Shown: positions 2,163 through 8,592 of the stretch, one piece after another
Layout: the number at the start of each line of letters is the position of its first letter
Position numbering within the stretch: position 1 is the first letter of the stretch
Position numbers and translations under genes: made by a program
Assembly (NCBI GenBank): GCA_016929495.1
Contig: JAFGIS010000093.1
Span: 1-64,000, forward strand
Direction of reading: 5' to 3'
Length of the DNA stretch: 64,000 nucleotides
Source of the DNA: Polyangiaceae bacterium
Lineage (GTDB): Bacteria; Myxococcota_A; Polyangia; Polyangiales; Polyangiaceae
Notes under the pieces: model-generated
The model's database searches: none
Told to the model about the DNA's origin: nothing
What the model saw: only the letters and a program-made list of their open reading frames with translations

Positions 2163-2867
2163 CTACTGTACCGGCACGTCCACCACGAGCCAGCGCTTCT
2201 CGAGCAGACAACGGTCGTCGTTGCACACCGAGAAGGCGAGCGTCCCCGAGATCCGCACCGTGCCCGTCGTCGTGGCGCTGAACGGGATCGAGAGCACACC
2301 GCGATCCCCGTCGATCATCATGCCCTTCGCGACCGACTCTCGAAAGCCGAGACTCGGGGGCGGCGGGTCGAGACGAAACCGATACGGGTAGCTCGGGCTG
2401 GGGTGATACGGAGGCTTCGCGACCAGGACCACGCGGGCGTACGCGCTCCGCCCCACGCGAACGGGCGCGGGTGCTTCGAGCCATACCGAGTAGGCATCGT
2501 GCTTCACCGCCGTGCCCTGGACGCCCCGTCCCGCAGGAGCCCGAGCTTCGGAAGGAGCCACGGTGGCGGGCGATGCTACGCCGCCTGCAGCGGGCGCGGC
2601 TGGCGGGGCGCCCGCGGAGGCTTCGGGTGCTGGCACGGCTCCCCGTACCGCTGTCGGTGCCGGTGTGGCTGCTGATGGCGGAGCCGCTGCCGGCCCCGAC
2701 ACCGCTCGGGCCACTGGAACAGGCGCGGCCGCTGGTGTTGCCTTTGGCGCTGACGCGACAGTAGCTGGTCCAGACACGGCCGCGTCACGCGCCGCACAGC
2801 TGCACAGCGCAGCAGCCATGAGCGCAGTCGCCACGGTTGGTGCTGCGCCGCGCCTCACGGAGAGCAC
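2163..2867 (-). CDS. Putative lipoprotein with DsbD N-terminal-like C-terminal domain
   Basis: Signal/lipobox-like LMAAALCSCAARD, Ala/Pro linker, C-terminal ISGTLAFSVCNDDRCLLEKRWLVVDVPVQ resembling DsbD alpha-type domains. The start is re-called inside the 295-aa ORF. Confidence 0.55.
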   Translation of the reverse strand: MLSVRRGAAPTVATALMAAALCSCAARDAAVSGPATVASAPKATPAAAPVPVARAVSGPAAAPPSAATPAPTAVRGAVPAPEASAGAPPAAPAAGGVASPATVAPSEARAPAGRGVQGTAVKHDAYSVWLEAPAPVRVGRSAYARVVLVAKPPYHPSPSYPYRFRLDPPPPSLGFRESVAKGMMIDGDRGVLSIPFSATTTGTVRISGTLAFSVCNDDRCLLEKRWLVVDVPVQ

Positions 2868-3454
2868 GGCTCGTCCAGAGTCCTTCGAGCCGCGTCCGGG
2901 AAATGGCCAGCCGCGGCCTTGCCCTCGGCCGTCCAGCGAAGATTGCCCTGCGCATCCAGAACGACCGATCCAGGCGGCCCCGCAATGCCATAGCGCCGCA
3001 TCAGCACACCGCCCAAGTCGATGAGGAAGGATTCGCCTGCGACGCCCCACGCTGCAAGCTTCGCGCCGCCTGATTCCCCAGGCTTCTGGCCTTCCTCGAA
3101 CACGCCGACCAGGAACAGATCGATACCCCTGTCGGCGAGCCCCGCGCGCTCTGCCACCGCGGCCGGCACCGTGCTCTCGCAGGGAATACAGGAAGGCGAC
3201 CAGAACTCCAGCACCGTGGCGCGCGCCCCTGGGCGCGGCACATCCGTGAGCGCTCCCTGGTCGCTCGGTGCGGAGAAGCCGCCGTCCCGCTCGCAGCGCA
3301 GCGCTACAGCGTCGCCTTCGGGAGCCCTGGTATCGGCGCTAGCTGGCGAAGTGTGTGCACAGCCGAGGGGGAAGCCGAGCAGGGGCAAGGCGACAAGGAC
3401 CGAGCCAAGGGCGAAGCGAAGCGGCCGCTGCGGGGGTGACGCGTCAGGCAACAT
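2855..3454 (-). CDS. Thioredoxin-fold (TlpA/ResA-like) lipoprotein
   Basis: Signal peptide PLRFALGSVLVALPLLGFPLGC; VLEFWSPSCIPCESTVPA (CxxC) and PPGSVVLDAQGNLRW (cis-Pro region). Start re-called at ATG 3454. Confidence 0.8.
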   Translation of the reverse strand: MLPDASPPQRPLRFALGSVLVALPLLGFPLGCAHTSPASADTRAPEGDAVALRCERDGGFSAPSDQGALTDVPRPGARATVLEFWSPSCIPCESTVPAAVAERAGLADRGIDLFLVGVFEEGQKPGESGGAKLAAWGVAGESFLIDLGGVLMRRYGIAGPPGSVVLDAQGNLRWTAEGKAAAGHFPDAARRTLDEPCSP

Positions 3455-3460
3455 GCGGGT

Positions 3461-4528
3461 ATGACGGATAGCACACCCGTGTGTCGACCGGAAGAAGTGA
3501 CCTTGGACACCCTGCGCGCCATGGCGGCGCGCGCTGCCCGCGGCAAGCGACACAGCCCGGACGTTGCCCGTTTTCTCGTGGATATCGACCAAGAACTCGT
3601 GAAACTCGGCAGAGAAATCCGCACACGCGAATACGCACCGCAGCCCGGACGGCCTCTGCGGATCCGCGATCCCAAACCCCGATGGATCACGGTGGTGCCC
3701 TTCCGCGACCGGGTGGTGCAGCATCTGCTCATTGCCGCAACGCTACCGGCCCTGGAACGGCGTTTTGCACCCCAGTCGTATGCGTGTCGGCGTGGCTTCG
3801 GAACCCACCGGGCCCTGCAGCGCGCACGGGACTGGACTCGACGGCGAGACTTCGTGCTTCGCCTCGACATCGCCAAGTTCTTTCCCAGCATCGACCACGC
3901 CTGCCTGAAGCGGATGTTGCTGCGTGTCACCGAGCCGCCGTGGCGCTGGCTCTCGGACAGGTTCGTGGACGCACCGTACTGCGGGGAACGCTTCGTCTCG
4001 TGGTTTCCCGGGGACGGTCTGCTCACGCCGCTCGAGCATCCGCACGGGCTTTCGATCGGCTCGCTCACCTCGCAGATCTGGGCCAACCTCTATCTGTCGC
4101 CCCTGGATCATCTCCTGGCCAGTCACCTCGGCATCGGCAGCTTCGTCCGCTACTGCGACGATTGGCTCATCTGGGATGATGACCCGGGACGGCTTCGTGA
4201 GGTGCTGCTCCGGTTGGAAGAGCACGCAGCGACCCTGCGGCTGAAGCTGCATCCGCGCAAGACGCGGCTCTACCGGACCACGGAGCCAGTGCCCTTCCTC
4301 GGTTTCGTGCTTCAGCGCCGCGGCTCGGCCGTTTCGGTGCGCCTCAGGCCGGAGAACCTGCGGCGCTTTCGCAAGCGCATGCGCAAAGTCCAGGCTCTGT
4401 ACGCGGCCGGCGCTCTCGAAGCGCATGAAGTTCGGTCACGAGTACAGGCCTGGCTCGCGCACGCACGTCACGGTCATACTCGCACGCTGGTTCGCCGAGT
4501 GCTCTCGGAGCTCGTGTTTCGAAGATGA
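3461..4528 (+). CDS. DGR-type reverse transcriptase
   Basis: RT motifs FVLRLDIAKFFPSIDH, DGR-characteristic GLSIGSLTSQIWANLYLSPLD and YCDDWLIW (YxDD). No maturase or endonuclease domain. Adjacent to TR/VR and Avd. Confidence 0.95.
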   Translation: MTDSTPVCRPEEVTLDTLRAMAARAARGKRHSPDVARFLVDIDQELVKLGREIRTREYAPQPGRPLRIRDPKPRWITVVPFRDRVVQHLLIAATLPALERRFAPQSYACRRGFGTHRALQRARDWTRRRDFVLRLDIAKFFPSIDHACLKRMLLRVTEPPWRWLSDRFVDAPYCGERFVSWFPGDGLLTPLEHPHGLSIGSLTSQIWANLYLSPLDHLLASHLGIGSFVRYCDDWLIWDDDPGRLREVLLRLEEHAATLRLKLHPRKTRLYRTTEPVPFLGFVLQRRGSAVSVRLRPENLRRFRKRMRKVQALYAAGALEAHEVRSRVQAWLAHARHGHTRTLVRRVLSELVFRR

Positions 4529-4770
4529 GCCCCGATCCAGGCAAGAACCCGCCCGTCGTCCGCGCGCGCCGGCCAAGGCCAGCGTGGAGGCGACTCGGCG
4601 AACGGGGGATCGGCCGCACTTGCGGACGATGCTCAGCGGGCTCCACCAGGGGCGAGGAGCCCGCGCCGGCTGCGAGTGGACCAGGTTGGGTACTCCAGGT
4701 AGAGCCGTGACCACACCTGTTCCGACCCACCTGCTGGCGCGCTGCTACCCGTTGGGGTGCAGCTGACAGA

Positions 4771-4793
4771 GGCCCTTCGTTCGAAACGAGGCC
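4771..4793. other. Hairpin abutting the 3' edge (minus sense) of the DGR template repeat
   Basis: GGCC-CT-TCGTT-CGA-AACGA-GGCC: arms 4771-4774/4790-4793 and 4777-4781/4785-4789, loop 4782-4784, 2-nt bulge. Confidence 0.6.
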
Positions 4794-4930
4794 CTGGTGC
4801 TGGCGCAACGCAGCCCGAGGTTGTTGTTCCGGTTGTCGGGCGTGTTCCTGTTGCGATTGGCGCCGCGGAGGTGCGAAGGATTGTCATTGTTCCAACTGCC
4901 GCCGCGGTTGACACGGTTCGTGCTTCTCGA
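4793..4930 (-). repeat. DGR template repeat (TR)
   Basis: 138 bp aligned without gaps to 5477-5614 (offset 684). Within 4801-4930, 24 mismatches all fall at T on + (A in the sense strand). Minus-strand translation NRVNRGGSWNNDNPSHLRGANRNRNTPDNRNNNLGLRCA is rich in AAC/AAT codons. Confidence 0.95.
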
Positions 4931-4968
4931 GCCGACGCACGTACGCATCCGCGCACGCAGCATGGACG

Positions 4969-5391
4969 CTAGCGCGAGCGCACCTGACGGGTCCAGCCCG
5001 AAAGCTTGCGGCCAATTTCATCGGTTCGCTCGGCAAAATGATTGCGCTGCTTGTCGGACACGAACCCTGCCCGATTGCAGAGGCGGACCAAGGTGCGAGC
5101 CCGGGTCAGCGAGCGCGCGGCCGCCAGCAGAAGCCCCAGCTTGTCGCGCGTGAAGGAAGCCTCCACCAGAGCATCCACGACCGCCAGGCAGCTCTCGATG
5201 AGGCGGTCGCCCAGGGTGAACCGATGGTCGCGTGGGAAGCTAGACACGCGTCCGATAACCCAGAGGGTCAAGTCCTCCATCTCGATGACCAGGGGTGGCA
5301 CGGCAGCGGAAGCTGCCCCTCGCCGCCGACCACGGGCTCCGGTCCTGACCCCCTCGTTCTTGTCCCTTGCCTCACGCTCTGACTCGGTCAC
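4969..5391 (-). CDS. avd: Accessory variability determinant-like four-helix-bundle protein (Avd)
   Basis: LTLWVIGRVSSFPRDHRFTLGDRLIESCL... (FPRxHRFTLGDR signature of the bAvd/four-helix-bundle family), position directly upstream of TR on the same strand. Confidence 0.88.
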   Translation of the reverse strand: MTESEREARDKNEGVRTGARGRRRGAASAAVPPLVIEMEDLTLWVIGRVSSFPRDHRFTLGDRLIESCLAVVDALVEASFTRDKLGLLLAAARSLTRARTLVRLCNRAGFVSDKQRNHFAERTDEIGRKLSGWTRQVRSR

Positions 5392-5473
5392 ATCGGCTCA
5401 GCCAAGGGATTGAGGATTGAAGGATCGAGGGTTAGTACGACTGAGCTCTCATTGCAAGAATCATGCCATATAC

Positions 5474-7105
5474 CTACCTGGTCCTGGCGCAACGCAGCCC
5501 GAGGCTGACGCCCCGGCCGGCGGGCGTGAGCCCGTTGCGACTGGCGCCGCGGAGGAGCGAAGGACTGTCAAAGAGCCAACTGCCGCCGCGGCGGACACGG
5601 CCCGTGCCGCTCGATGGTCCGGCATAATTCTTGCTTGCACGCTGCGGATAGGGCCCATACCAATCCGCCACCCACTCCCAGACGTTGCCTGCCATGTCCC
5701 GCAGTCCAAAGGCTCCCGCTGGATAGCTCGCGACCGGACACGTGCCCTGGCGGTTCCCTCTGCCCAGATCGTTCCCCTCGCCGTCCCAGCAAGCAAGACG
5801 ACCAGGCGCAGCGCTGCCCCAGGGATAGGTGAGCTGTTGGCTTCCTCCTCGCGCCGCGTACTCCCACTCCGCCTCGGTGGGCAAGCGCTTGCCTACCGCC
5901 GCGCAGTAGGCCTGCGCCTGGTCCCAGTCCACGCAGTTGATGGGATGCTGGTCTCTCCCAGACACGCCCCAATTGCAGGAGCGACCCGTGCTCGGCGCGC
6001 TACATGTCGAGCACGCCTTGTACGCCCGCACCGTGACCTCGGTCACGTCCAGGCAGAAGCCCGAGACCTCCTGCGTGTGCACCGGCTTCTCGTCGTCATC
6101 GCCGTTGTTCGAGCCCATCTGGAAGGTTCCGCCCCCGATCCACGCCATGCCGCCGGGGCAGCTGGTGGCCGTAGTCTGGGCAGGAGCGGGCGGAGCTGTC
6201 GCGGCGGGGCGCGGAGGTGCTGGCTGCTCCGGGGCAGGCTGGTCGGGCGCGGCTGGTCGCGGCGCCGTGGGCTGCTCCGGGGCAGCCTGAGCAGTAGCTG
6301 ACGGCGTCGCGGGAGCCTCGGTCTCCACCTCCCTTCCAGGGATGGCCCGGAGCTCGAGCCGCAGCGGCACGTTGCAGCCTGCGCTCTCCTCCTTCTTCGA
6401 CATGGCCTGTTCGCAGTCGGCGGGGTTGCCCTCGGTGCTCCACCGTAGCTCGCTCTGCCTCTGCCCCGCCCCTGCTCCGACCCCGAACACCCCAACGTCT
6501 CCCTTGACCGCATCCCGCTGCCCCGAGGCCCGCGCAAAACCGCCCACGATCACCCGCGTCGCGTAGTGCGTCGCTTGCTCGCAGTCCGTGCCTTTCCACT
6601 CGCCCACGGTGACGCCATCGGGCAGCACGTACGCTCCCACCATGCGGTAGTCCACCCGCAGCGAGCGCCCGGCCCCGAACTCCCCGCCGAGCGACGCGGC
6701 ATTCAGCGGCAGTTTCGCGTACGCCTCGCGCTGGCTGTCGGCCACCAGCGTGTCCGAACGCGGATAGGGCTTGAACTGGTACGGGCTCCCGCTAGCTGCC
6801 CCTGCCACCTGGCCCACGCAGTCCACGACCCTCGCGGTGACCATGCAGCCCTGTTGCTCCATCCGGAGCGCCACGACTCCGTCGCTCCGCTTCTCCTGCA
6901 CCTTCTGCCGCTCGGTGGCGTCCCAGGCCATCAAGTCGGGCTCCCTGAGCGGATCGCGCTCGAAGGCCGGGCACTGTTCAATCGGCGGGGGAGGAGGCGG
7001 CGGAGGAAGCGGCGTAGACGACCCACACGCCATCGCGCCGCCCACGAGCAGGGCCGCTGTCCGCCGGACCCAGATTCTGTAGCTCACCACTTCTAGTCCG
7101 CGCAT
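5474..7105 (-). CDS. DGR target: lipoprotein with C-terminal formylglycine-generating-enzyme/sulfatase-modifying (C-type-lectin-fold) domain
   Basis: N-terminal lipobox-like LLVGGAMACGSS plus poly-Pro; Pro/Ala linker; CPGGMAWIGGGTFQMGSN...VTEVTVRAYKAC...LPTEAEWEYAARGG...DMAGNVWEWVADWYG...RRGGSWLFDSPSLLRGASRNGLTPAGRGVSLGLRCARTR, ending in the VR. Confidence 0.93.
   Translation of the reverse strand: MRGLEVVSYRIWVRRTAALLVGGAMACGSSTPLPPPPPPPPIEQCPAFERDPLREPDLMAWDATERQKVQEKRSDGVVALRMEQQGCMVTARVVDCVGQVAGAASGSPYQFKPYPRSDTLVADSQREAYAKLPLNAASLGGEFGAGRSLRVDYRMVGAYVLPDGVTVGEWKGTDCEQATHYATRVIVGGFARASGQRDAVKGDVGVFGVGAGAGQRQSELRWSTEGNPADCEQAMSKKEESAGCNVPLRLELRAIPGREVETEAPATPSATAQAAPEQPTAPRPAAPDQPAPEQPAPPRPAATAPPAPAQTTATSCPGGMAWIGGGTFQMGSNNGDDDEKPVHTQEVSGFCLDVTEVTVRAYKACSTCSAPSTGRSCNWGVSGRDQHPINCVDWDQAQAYCAAVGKRLPTEAEWEYAARGGSQQLTYPWGSAAPGRLACWDGEGNDLGRGNRQGTCPVASYPAGAFGLRDMAGNVWEWVADWYGPYPQRASKNYAGPSSGTGRVRRGGSWLFDSPSLLRGASRNGLTPAGRGVSLGLRCARTR
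5477..5614 (-). repeat. DGR variable repeat (VR) at the 3' end of the target gene
   Basis: Gapless match to TR 4793-4930 with adenine-specific substitutions; lies 1 bp upstream of the stop codon (5474-5476). Confidence 0.95.
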
Positions 7106-7140
7106 CGCAGCGCAGGGTAGCAGCCCCGACCCGGCCTTGG

Positions 7141-8592
7141 CTAGGTATCACCTGGTCTCACAGCCCCTGCCCTACGGCTACGCGCTATCCCTTCCTCGAC
7201 ACACCGCTCCCCTAACACGACCCTCGCCGCTCGTCCATTGTGGACGGAACACATCAGACGGATATTCTCGACCGTTGCCGCGCCTCCGCGACAGAACGGC
7301 AGCCTGTGCTCGAACTCGACGCATCGGCGTTCGCTGCACCGCTGGCCCCTCTCGTCCACGAACGTGCAACGCCCGCCGTCGCGCTCCCAGACGGCGCGCC
7401 GCACCTCGGCGGGAATGTGGCGCGACCGAGGACGAGTTCTGACGGCTCCACTCCGACGGGTCTCCGGACCCTCACGCGCTGCACGAGAGTCAACCCCCGC
7501 CGCTCGCCCCGGAGCGAGTGGACCGCGCCCTGCGTGCTCATTACCTTCGCCCGACGACCGGACCGCCACCTCGTCGCTCCGCCCAGCGCCTGTTTCTCCG
7601 TTCGCGCCGCCCTTCGAGCGGGCGCGTCCAGCGGCCGCGCTCGAACGGGGTGCGCTCGCTTCACAAGCAAACCGCCGCTTCTGCTCCCGAGCGATGAGTG
7701 CGTCCAAGGCACGCTCGAACAGCGCCCCAAGGTCGCCTGGAGCCACGGCATGGCTGGTGAGCTCCCGCGCGCGTTCGAGCTTGTCGCAGAGCTCCTGGCT
7801 CGCGGTGAACGTCACTCGGTAGCGCCGGGATGCGAGCGGGTCTATTCGGCCAGCGGCTGCGCGCTCCGCGGCGCCGCTTGCACCGCGCGCCACCGCGCGC
7901 CACGGCAGCGCAGGCGATGCCGCAGAGTCGGCCGCGAGTCTCACCGACATTGCTGCCATCGATGCCGCGACGCCCCCCACGAGTGCCGCCTTCGTCTCGG
8001 GCACGGTCTCCGCGTTGGCCGTCTCTATCGCGGCCGCGGTCGCCCGCAGCGCCGGTTGTTGGACCACCGGCGCTGCGGGCGCGCAAATTGCTGCCGGTGT
8101 CTCCGCTTCGGGCACCAACGCTCGTCGCTCCGGCAGCTTGCGTATCGTGGCCGGGACGTCCGGCCTCGGAAACCGTTCGGCAATGAGCTTCTCCACTTCG
8201 CGCTTGGTCTTGCCGCAAGCCAACGCAAGCAACTCCGACTGACTCTCTGACGTGAGATGAGGTGCCACGACCAGAAGACCCGACAAGTGCAGCCGTCCGG
8301 TTCGCACGAGCTCGAGCACGGACGGGAAACGTCGCGCCAGTCGGGCGGCGGTGATGCGTTTGAACGCCATACCCTCGCTGAAGCCGAAGACTTCGACGCA
8401 ATAGCGAAAGAGCGATCCGCAAGCCGTCGCCTCGTGCAAGCGCCGTACGTCCATTTCCCCCAAGTGCAAGAGCAGCTCGGCCGTCAGCTGCCGATCGTTC
8501 TGAACCAGCCGCTCGAGCTCAGCGCAGAGCTCCGGGTTTGAGAGACTGGCCACCCTGTCGAATGCATCGCATTGCCCCGTATCCGTGGTCAT
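7141..8592 (-). CDS. HNH endonuclease domain protein
   Basis: C-terminal RHIPAEVRRAVWERDGGRCTFVDERGQRCSERRCVEFEHRLPFCRGGAATVENIRLMCSVHN; start re-called at MTTDTGQCDAFDR. Confidence 0.85.
   Translation of the reverse strand: MTTDTGQCDAFDRVASLSNPELCAELERLVQNDRQLTAELLLHLGEMDVRRLHEATACGSLFRYCVEVFGFSEGMAFKRITAARLARRFPSVLELVRTGRLHLSGLLVVAPHLTSESQSELLALACGKTKREVEKLIAERFPRPDVPATIRKLPERRALVPEAETPAAICAPAAPVVQQPALRATAAAIETANAETVPETKAALVGGVAASMAAMSVRLAADSAASPALPWRAVARGASGAAERAAAGRIDPLASRRYRVTFTASQELCDKLERARELTSHAVAPGDLGALFERALDALIAREQKRRFACEASAPRSSAAAGRARSKGGANGETGAGRSDEVAVRSSGEGNEHAGRGPLAPGRAAGVDSRAAREGPETRRSGAVRTRPRSRHIPAEVRRAVWERDGGRCTFVDERGQRCSERRCVEFEHRLPFCRGGAATVENIRLMCSVHNGRAARVVLGERCVEEGIARSRRAGAVRPGDT

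Follow-up and report, generated by a model that had tools for sequence, protein, structure and literature searches.

The stretch of DNA analysed here (the window, 64,000 nucleotides from a Polyangiaceae bacterium) contains a diversity-generating retroelement (DGR) in which the reverse transcriptase (RT) reads towards the template repeat (TR) from the opposite strand. This raises the question how such a convergent cassette can operate, from which strand its template RNA is made, and whether the orientation of the RT carries a meaning of its own. The DGR is complete at 3461-7105, and the window itself corresponds to positions 1-64,000 of contig C255; the source genome is a fragmented bin (MAG) of 9.56 Mb in 675 contigs with 7% contamination. 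The RT gene (3461-4528, plus strand, 355 aa) matches RVT_1 (E 5e-19) and the PHROG RT profile (E 3e-86) and points towards the other parts of the cassette. Its translation carries the sequence IGSLTSQ, i.e. the DGR motif (I/V/L)GxxxSQ of domain 4, as well as YCDD, and on the RT tree it is placed among RTs with a TR and a variable repeat (VR), with DGR RTs as closest kin. The remaining parts are found on the minus strand in the order target, avd, TR, with the plus-strand RT running towards them. The target gene (5474-7105) codes for a putative lipoprotein of 543 aa, with the lipoprotein signal assigned by eye and a C-terminal FGE-sulfatase domain (PF03781, E 8e-59, residues 319-541) that bears the VR and that, judging from the family, presumably adopts a C-type-lectin-like fold. 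The accessory variability determinant gene avd (4969-5391) matches bAvd (PF22296, E 4e-15, over the Pfam cut-off) and PHROG Avd; the match to NCBIfam DivGenRetAVD has an E value of 2e-17, yet stays under the 80-bit cut-off of that model. The RT stop codon is separated from the TR (4793-4930) by a spacer of 264 nt (4529-4792). Thus, the coordinates and strands given in the preliminary description, with target, avd and TR on the minus strand and a convergent plus-strand RT 264 bp away, are all confirmed.

Comparison of the TR with the VR (5477-5614, minus strand, at the 3' end of the target gene) reveals adenine-targeted differences. While 24 of the 37 TR adenines are changed, mismatches at the remaining 102 aligned positions are confined to two edge bases. 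No clear GRNA-loop hairpin is seen 3' of the VR in one fold. On the other side of the cassette a thioredoxin-like putative lipoprotein (2855-3455, CxxC by eye, without Pfam match) is encoded on the strand opposite to the RT. Since this gene starts 5 bp from the RT start, any RT promoter is probably located inside it.

The preliminary description had linked the spacer, by comparison with BPP-1, to the TR RNA, and a covarying structured RNA is indeed found there on the TR strand. A covariance model (R1), built from the TR-strand spacer alignment of 11 loci, matches the window at 4542-4732 on the minus strand with 127 bits, and this is its single match in the 9.56-Mb genome. The 11 spacers have a common order of helices, read on the TR strand: P1, a conserved linker, P2, P3 and P4. 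In the window, P1 (4684-4731) consists of an outer helix (columns 2-8/53-60 of alignment A1) and of an inner hairpin (columns 14-22/40-48), with compensatory changes in 14 of 16 pairs, and is followed by the linker CCTGGTCCA (4677-4685). The P2 hairpin, GCGGGCTCC...GGAGCCCGC (4636-4664), was read from the sequence and from individual folds; it is absent from the consensus because its length differs among loci. P3 (4609-4631) shows compensatory changes in eight of nine pairs, and after the terminal hairpin P4 (4548-4607) the RNA model stops 13 nt short of the RT stop. A U-tract 3' of P4 is strong in four loci (L010, L011, L012 and L013) and weak in the window (TTCTTG). Of the 42 pairs predicted by RNAalifold, which do not include P2, 31 show compensatory (double) changes. 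This is further supported by a counting test, in which 92.6% of cells are paired compared to 71.0 +/- 1.4 after shuffling and 41-51% with slid partners, and by the alifold energy of -52.6 compared to -7.3 +/- 2.9 in column shuffles. A search of Rfam 15 over 3400-5700 yields no family at E values up to 1. The fold and its position 3' of the TR agree with the structured spacer of DGRs that binds RT-Avd and primes cDNA, two roles that are putative in the window.

As the stems are nearly symmetrical, folding energies do not give the strand of the RNA, and we therefore compared the numbers of G.U and A.C pairs. Pairs predicted from both strands and read on the TR strand comprise 20 G.U and 4 A.C; pairs derived from the opposite strand give 23 and 29, respectively. 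A count of 36 vs 7 was set aside, as its pairs derive from the TR strand and are biased. Because G.U exceeds A.C in the pairs common to both strands, the minus strand is the most likely source of the TR RNA in the window. The placement of the spacer model points in the same direction. Outside the training clade, R1 matches eight loci in which a TR was detected (L029, L034, L036, L040, L041, L056, L062 and L166), and every one of these matches is located on the TR strand at 10-60 nt 3' of the TR, whichever direction the RT takes. No single match is strong (E 1.5e-4 to 0.6) and it is their placement that constitutes the evidence; among them is L036, which is independently inverted. A close relative with a co-directional RT (L016) has the same spacer fold on its own TR strand. 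Pair counts and model placement thus contradict a TR RNA made from the plus strand, the outcome that the preliminary description had held against its own reading. The RNA model alone also led to L179 (5491-6150 of G019:C1), an orphan remnant of avd, TR and spacer that lacks a neighbouring RT.

How cDNA synthesis might start on this RNA is suggested by the conserved linker. The last seven nucleotides of the TR, CACCAGG (4799-4793, minus strand), can pair at six positions with CCTGGTC in the linker (4685-4679). When the TR end of each of 11 loci is matched with its own linker, 74 positions are paired compared to 62.8 +/- 2.6 in permutations, with a p value of 5e-5 that is optimistic, given the relatedness of the loci and the choice of the segments by eye. 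We regard this helix as a strong lead, not as proof. The phage BPP-1 (NC_005357) resembles the window in that the VR-containing target is followed by avd, the TR and a spacer (144 nt in BPP-1), but in BPP-1 all parts, including the RT beyond the spacer, are co-directional; this confirms the mtd-avd-TR-brt order from which the preliminary description had set the window apart. The BPP-1 spacer gives no meaningful match to R1 with filters off. Just before position 56 of this spacer, which we take to be the priming adenine, AGGTGGT can pair with ATCACCT near the TR end, as is the case here. In BPP-1 the cDNA is primed from an adenine inside the spacer, at the 3' junction of the TR (PMC12875486). 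By analogy with BPP-1, whose spacer can likewise pair with the TR end, the linker is a likely cDNA primer site in the window.

Judged by its parts and their strands, the adenine-targeted differences, the RNA fold and the architecture found throughout the clade, all read from sequence, the window very probably harbours a DGR that is chromosomal and belongs to the known 'inverted' type, with a minus-strand TR-spacer RNA and an RT supplied in trans. Target, avd and TR would be read on the minus strand, and the TR RNA would run on through the folded spacer to end beside the RT stop codon. The RT would be produced from its own plus-strand mRNA and, by analogy, bind with Avd to the TR-spacer RNA and act on it in trans. 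The TR 3' end would pair with the linker, where the cDNA is primed; adenines would be miscopied during cDNA synthesis, and the cDNA would then replace the VR by retrohoming.

A scan of GTDB genomes with the RT gave 76 loci, and searches of related genomes added more. We detected TR/VR pairs and their strands with a script that looks for repeats whose mismatches fall at adenines. The layout is common to the clade kin from Myxococcota, whose RTs are 46-65% identical to that of the window. Six loci are convergent with avd on the target strand and a detected TR/VR pair (L009, L010, L011, L157, L158 and L162), and four others have the same order of RT, avd and spacer without a detectable VR (L012, L014, L015 and L161). 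The comparison with other inverted-RT loci, as proposed in the preliminary description, finds this layout again in independent assemblies. In a sample of 61 TR-containing loci, biased towards relatives of the window RT, RT and TR are on the same strand in 44, convergent in 12, and arranged with an opposite-strand TR upstream of the RT in five, which form one clade on the RT tree. This last type is represented in the source genome by L129 (contig C467, 13-1527), where the TR on the minus strand is located upstream of plus-strand avd and RT, and the VR, also on the minus strand, downstream.

The convergent label requires four changes on the RT tree, also when only starred branches are counted. 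Convergent loci fall into the myxobacterial clade, L036 (Planctomycetota) and a group of L042, L043 and L050 (Acidobacteriota and Saprospiraceae), which indicates that the convergent RT arose at least three times among the sampled loci. L016 (Myxococcales SKS1.bin3) sits among the convergent loci on the tree, and monophyly of the convergent myxobacterial loci to its exclusion is not rejected (p-AU 0.28). Its RT is 54% identical to that of the window and its spacer has the same fold, but its VR-avd-TR-spacer unit is co-directional with the RT, which follows after a VapBC-like pair (by eye). Inserted toxin-antitoxin-like genes, assigned by eye as VapBC-like, ParE/RelE-like and a PIN fragment, either separate the spacer from the RT or replace TR and avd in L016 (about 4600-5350), L014 (about 2765-3345) and L013 (about 7350-7600).

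The inverted architecture as such is an already described kind and not new (PMC3521204, PMC6642488). In the DiGReF collection of 2012 'inverted' DGRs are structural group 4, exemplified by Shewanella baltica, Vibrio sp. RC586 and Photobacterium angustum, and the authors argued that a single transcript for template RNA and RT mRNA is not required (PMC3521204). As in the window, the RT of group 4 is on one strand and TR, VR and target are on the other, with ordinary adenine mutagenesis; the window has this layout, and membership in group 4 is set by layout and not by RT clade. The three RTs of group 4 formed one clade, which was taken as a one-time inversion, whereas the window belongs to a myxobacterial clade and our sample contains at least three convergent origins. 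Within the DiGReF description of inverted DGRs, the position of avd and the spacer RNA are not discussed (PMC3521204). Yan et al. (2019) list a cassette with the RT inverted relative to TR and VR, as in the window, as G5, with G1 more than 20 times commoner; G5 is presented there as a pattern count, without analysis of the spacer RNA (PMC6642488). In the accessible literature we found no such spacer RNA family, position rule or repeated convergent origin.

The convergent overlap could itself be a regulator, with the RT mRNA reading through spacer and TR and, as an antisense, preventing the TR RNA from folding or being used, such that more RT transcription limits mutagenesis. In nine of 12 clade loci the RT stop falls in the interval from 13 nt ahead of the spacer RNA to 55 nt within it, and RT codons overlap P4 in L010 and L157. 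Read-through of the RT into the antisense of the TR is plausible because no plus-strand terminator-like site is found by a consensus scan of 3200-7300, a scan to which Rho-dependent termination is invisible; the consensus scan for promoters and terminators remained at chance level and identified none, and in this phylum the sigma-70 consensus offers little guidance. That the layout arose repeatedly also fits such a role. However, the RT-spacer gap is 41 nt in L013, 262 nt in L162 and 587 nt in L014, and about 0.8 kb in the co-directional L016. As loci tolerate such gaps, tight overlap is not essential, and compact genomes alone may explain the tight packing. We consider antisense control unlikely. 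More speculative still is the wider proposal that TR and spacer form an RNA gene of their own, which terminates itself and keeps its fold and primer helix whatever the RT orientation, and that a tail-to-tail overlapping RT was selected repeatedly as RT transcription antagonises the template RNA.

Alternatively, the cassette might be a decayed chance survivor that no longer diversifies its target. Erosion is seen among kin and paralogues: the RT of L131 is truncated, that of L125 contains stops, and no TR was found in L013. The evidence also comes from a single MAG, without population variation. The cassette in the window, however, retains an intact RT, avd, TR, VR and spacer, and random decay would have eroded a pattern in which differences fall on adenines with two edge mismatches only, which makes this explanation rather improbable. 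The source genome contains nine RT matches, with further relatives at L125, L126, L127, L128 and L130, several of them interrupted or truncated. A second inverted DGR (L131, contig C670, 7027-7889 and 6771-6995) retains TR, avd and VR, with an RT reduced to about residues 14-88 and no detected spacer RNA; it is probably decaying, because its differences include four non-adenine sites. An orphan TR-like stretch rich in AAC codons (L139, contig C41, 4112-4226) lies beside a further FGE-like gene, and no RT was detected within the 14 kb inspected there; as a VR of the window TR it was rejected, since the differences are not confined to adenines. Finally, an assembly error that flipped the RT relative to the TR, which the fragmented and contaminated MAG might invite and which the preliminary description had itself raised, has practically no likelihood and can be excluded, because the identical layout is found in independent assemblies and in remote lineages.

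An inverted DGR with a minus-strand TR-spacer RNA and an RT in trans thus remains the preferred reading of the window. The repeated convergent origins extend the one-time-inversion reading of 2012. The covariation-supported fold and the candidate primer helix are testable against BPP-1, and the model of the spacer RNA family provides a means to find DGR template RNAs without an RT. For the biology of these elements, our data suggest that selection may keep the TR and its 3' spacer RNA as a unit, while the RT moves and flips freely.
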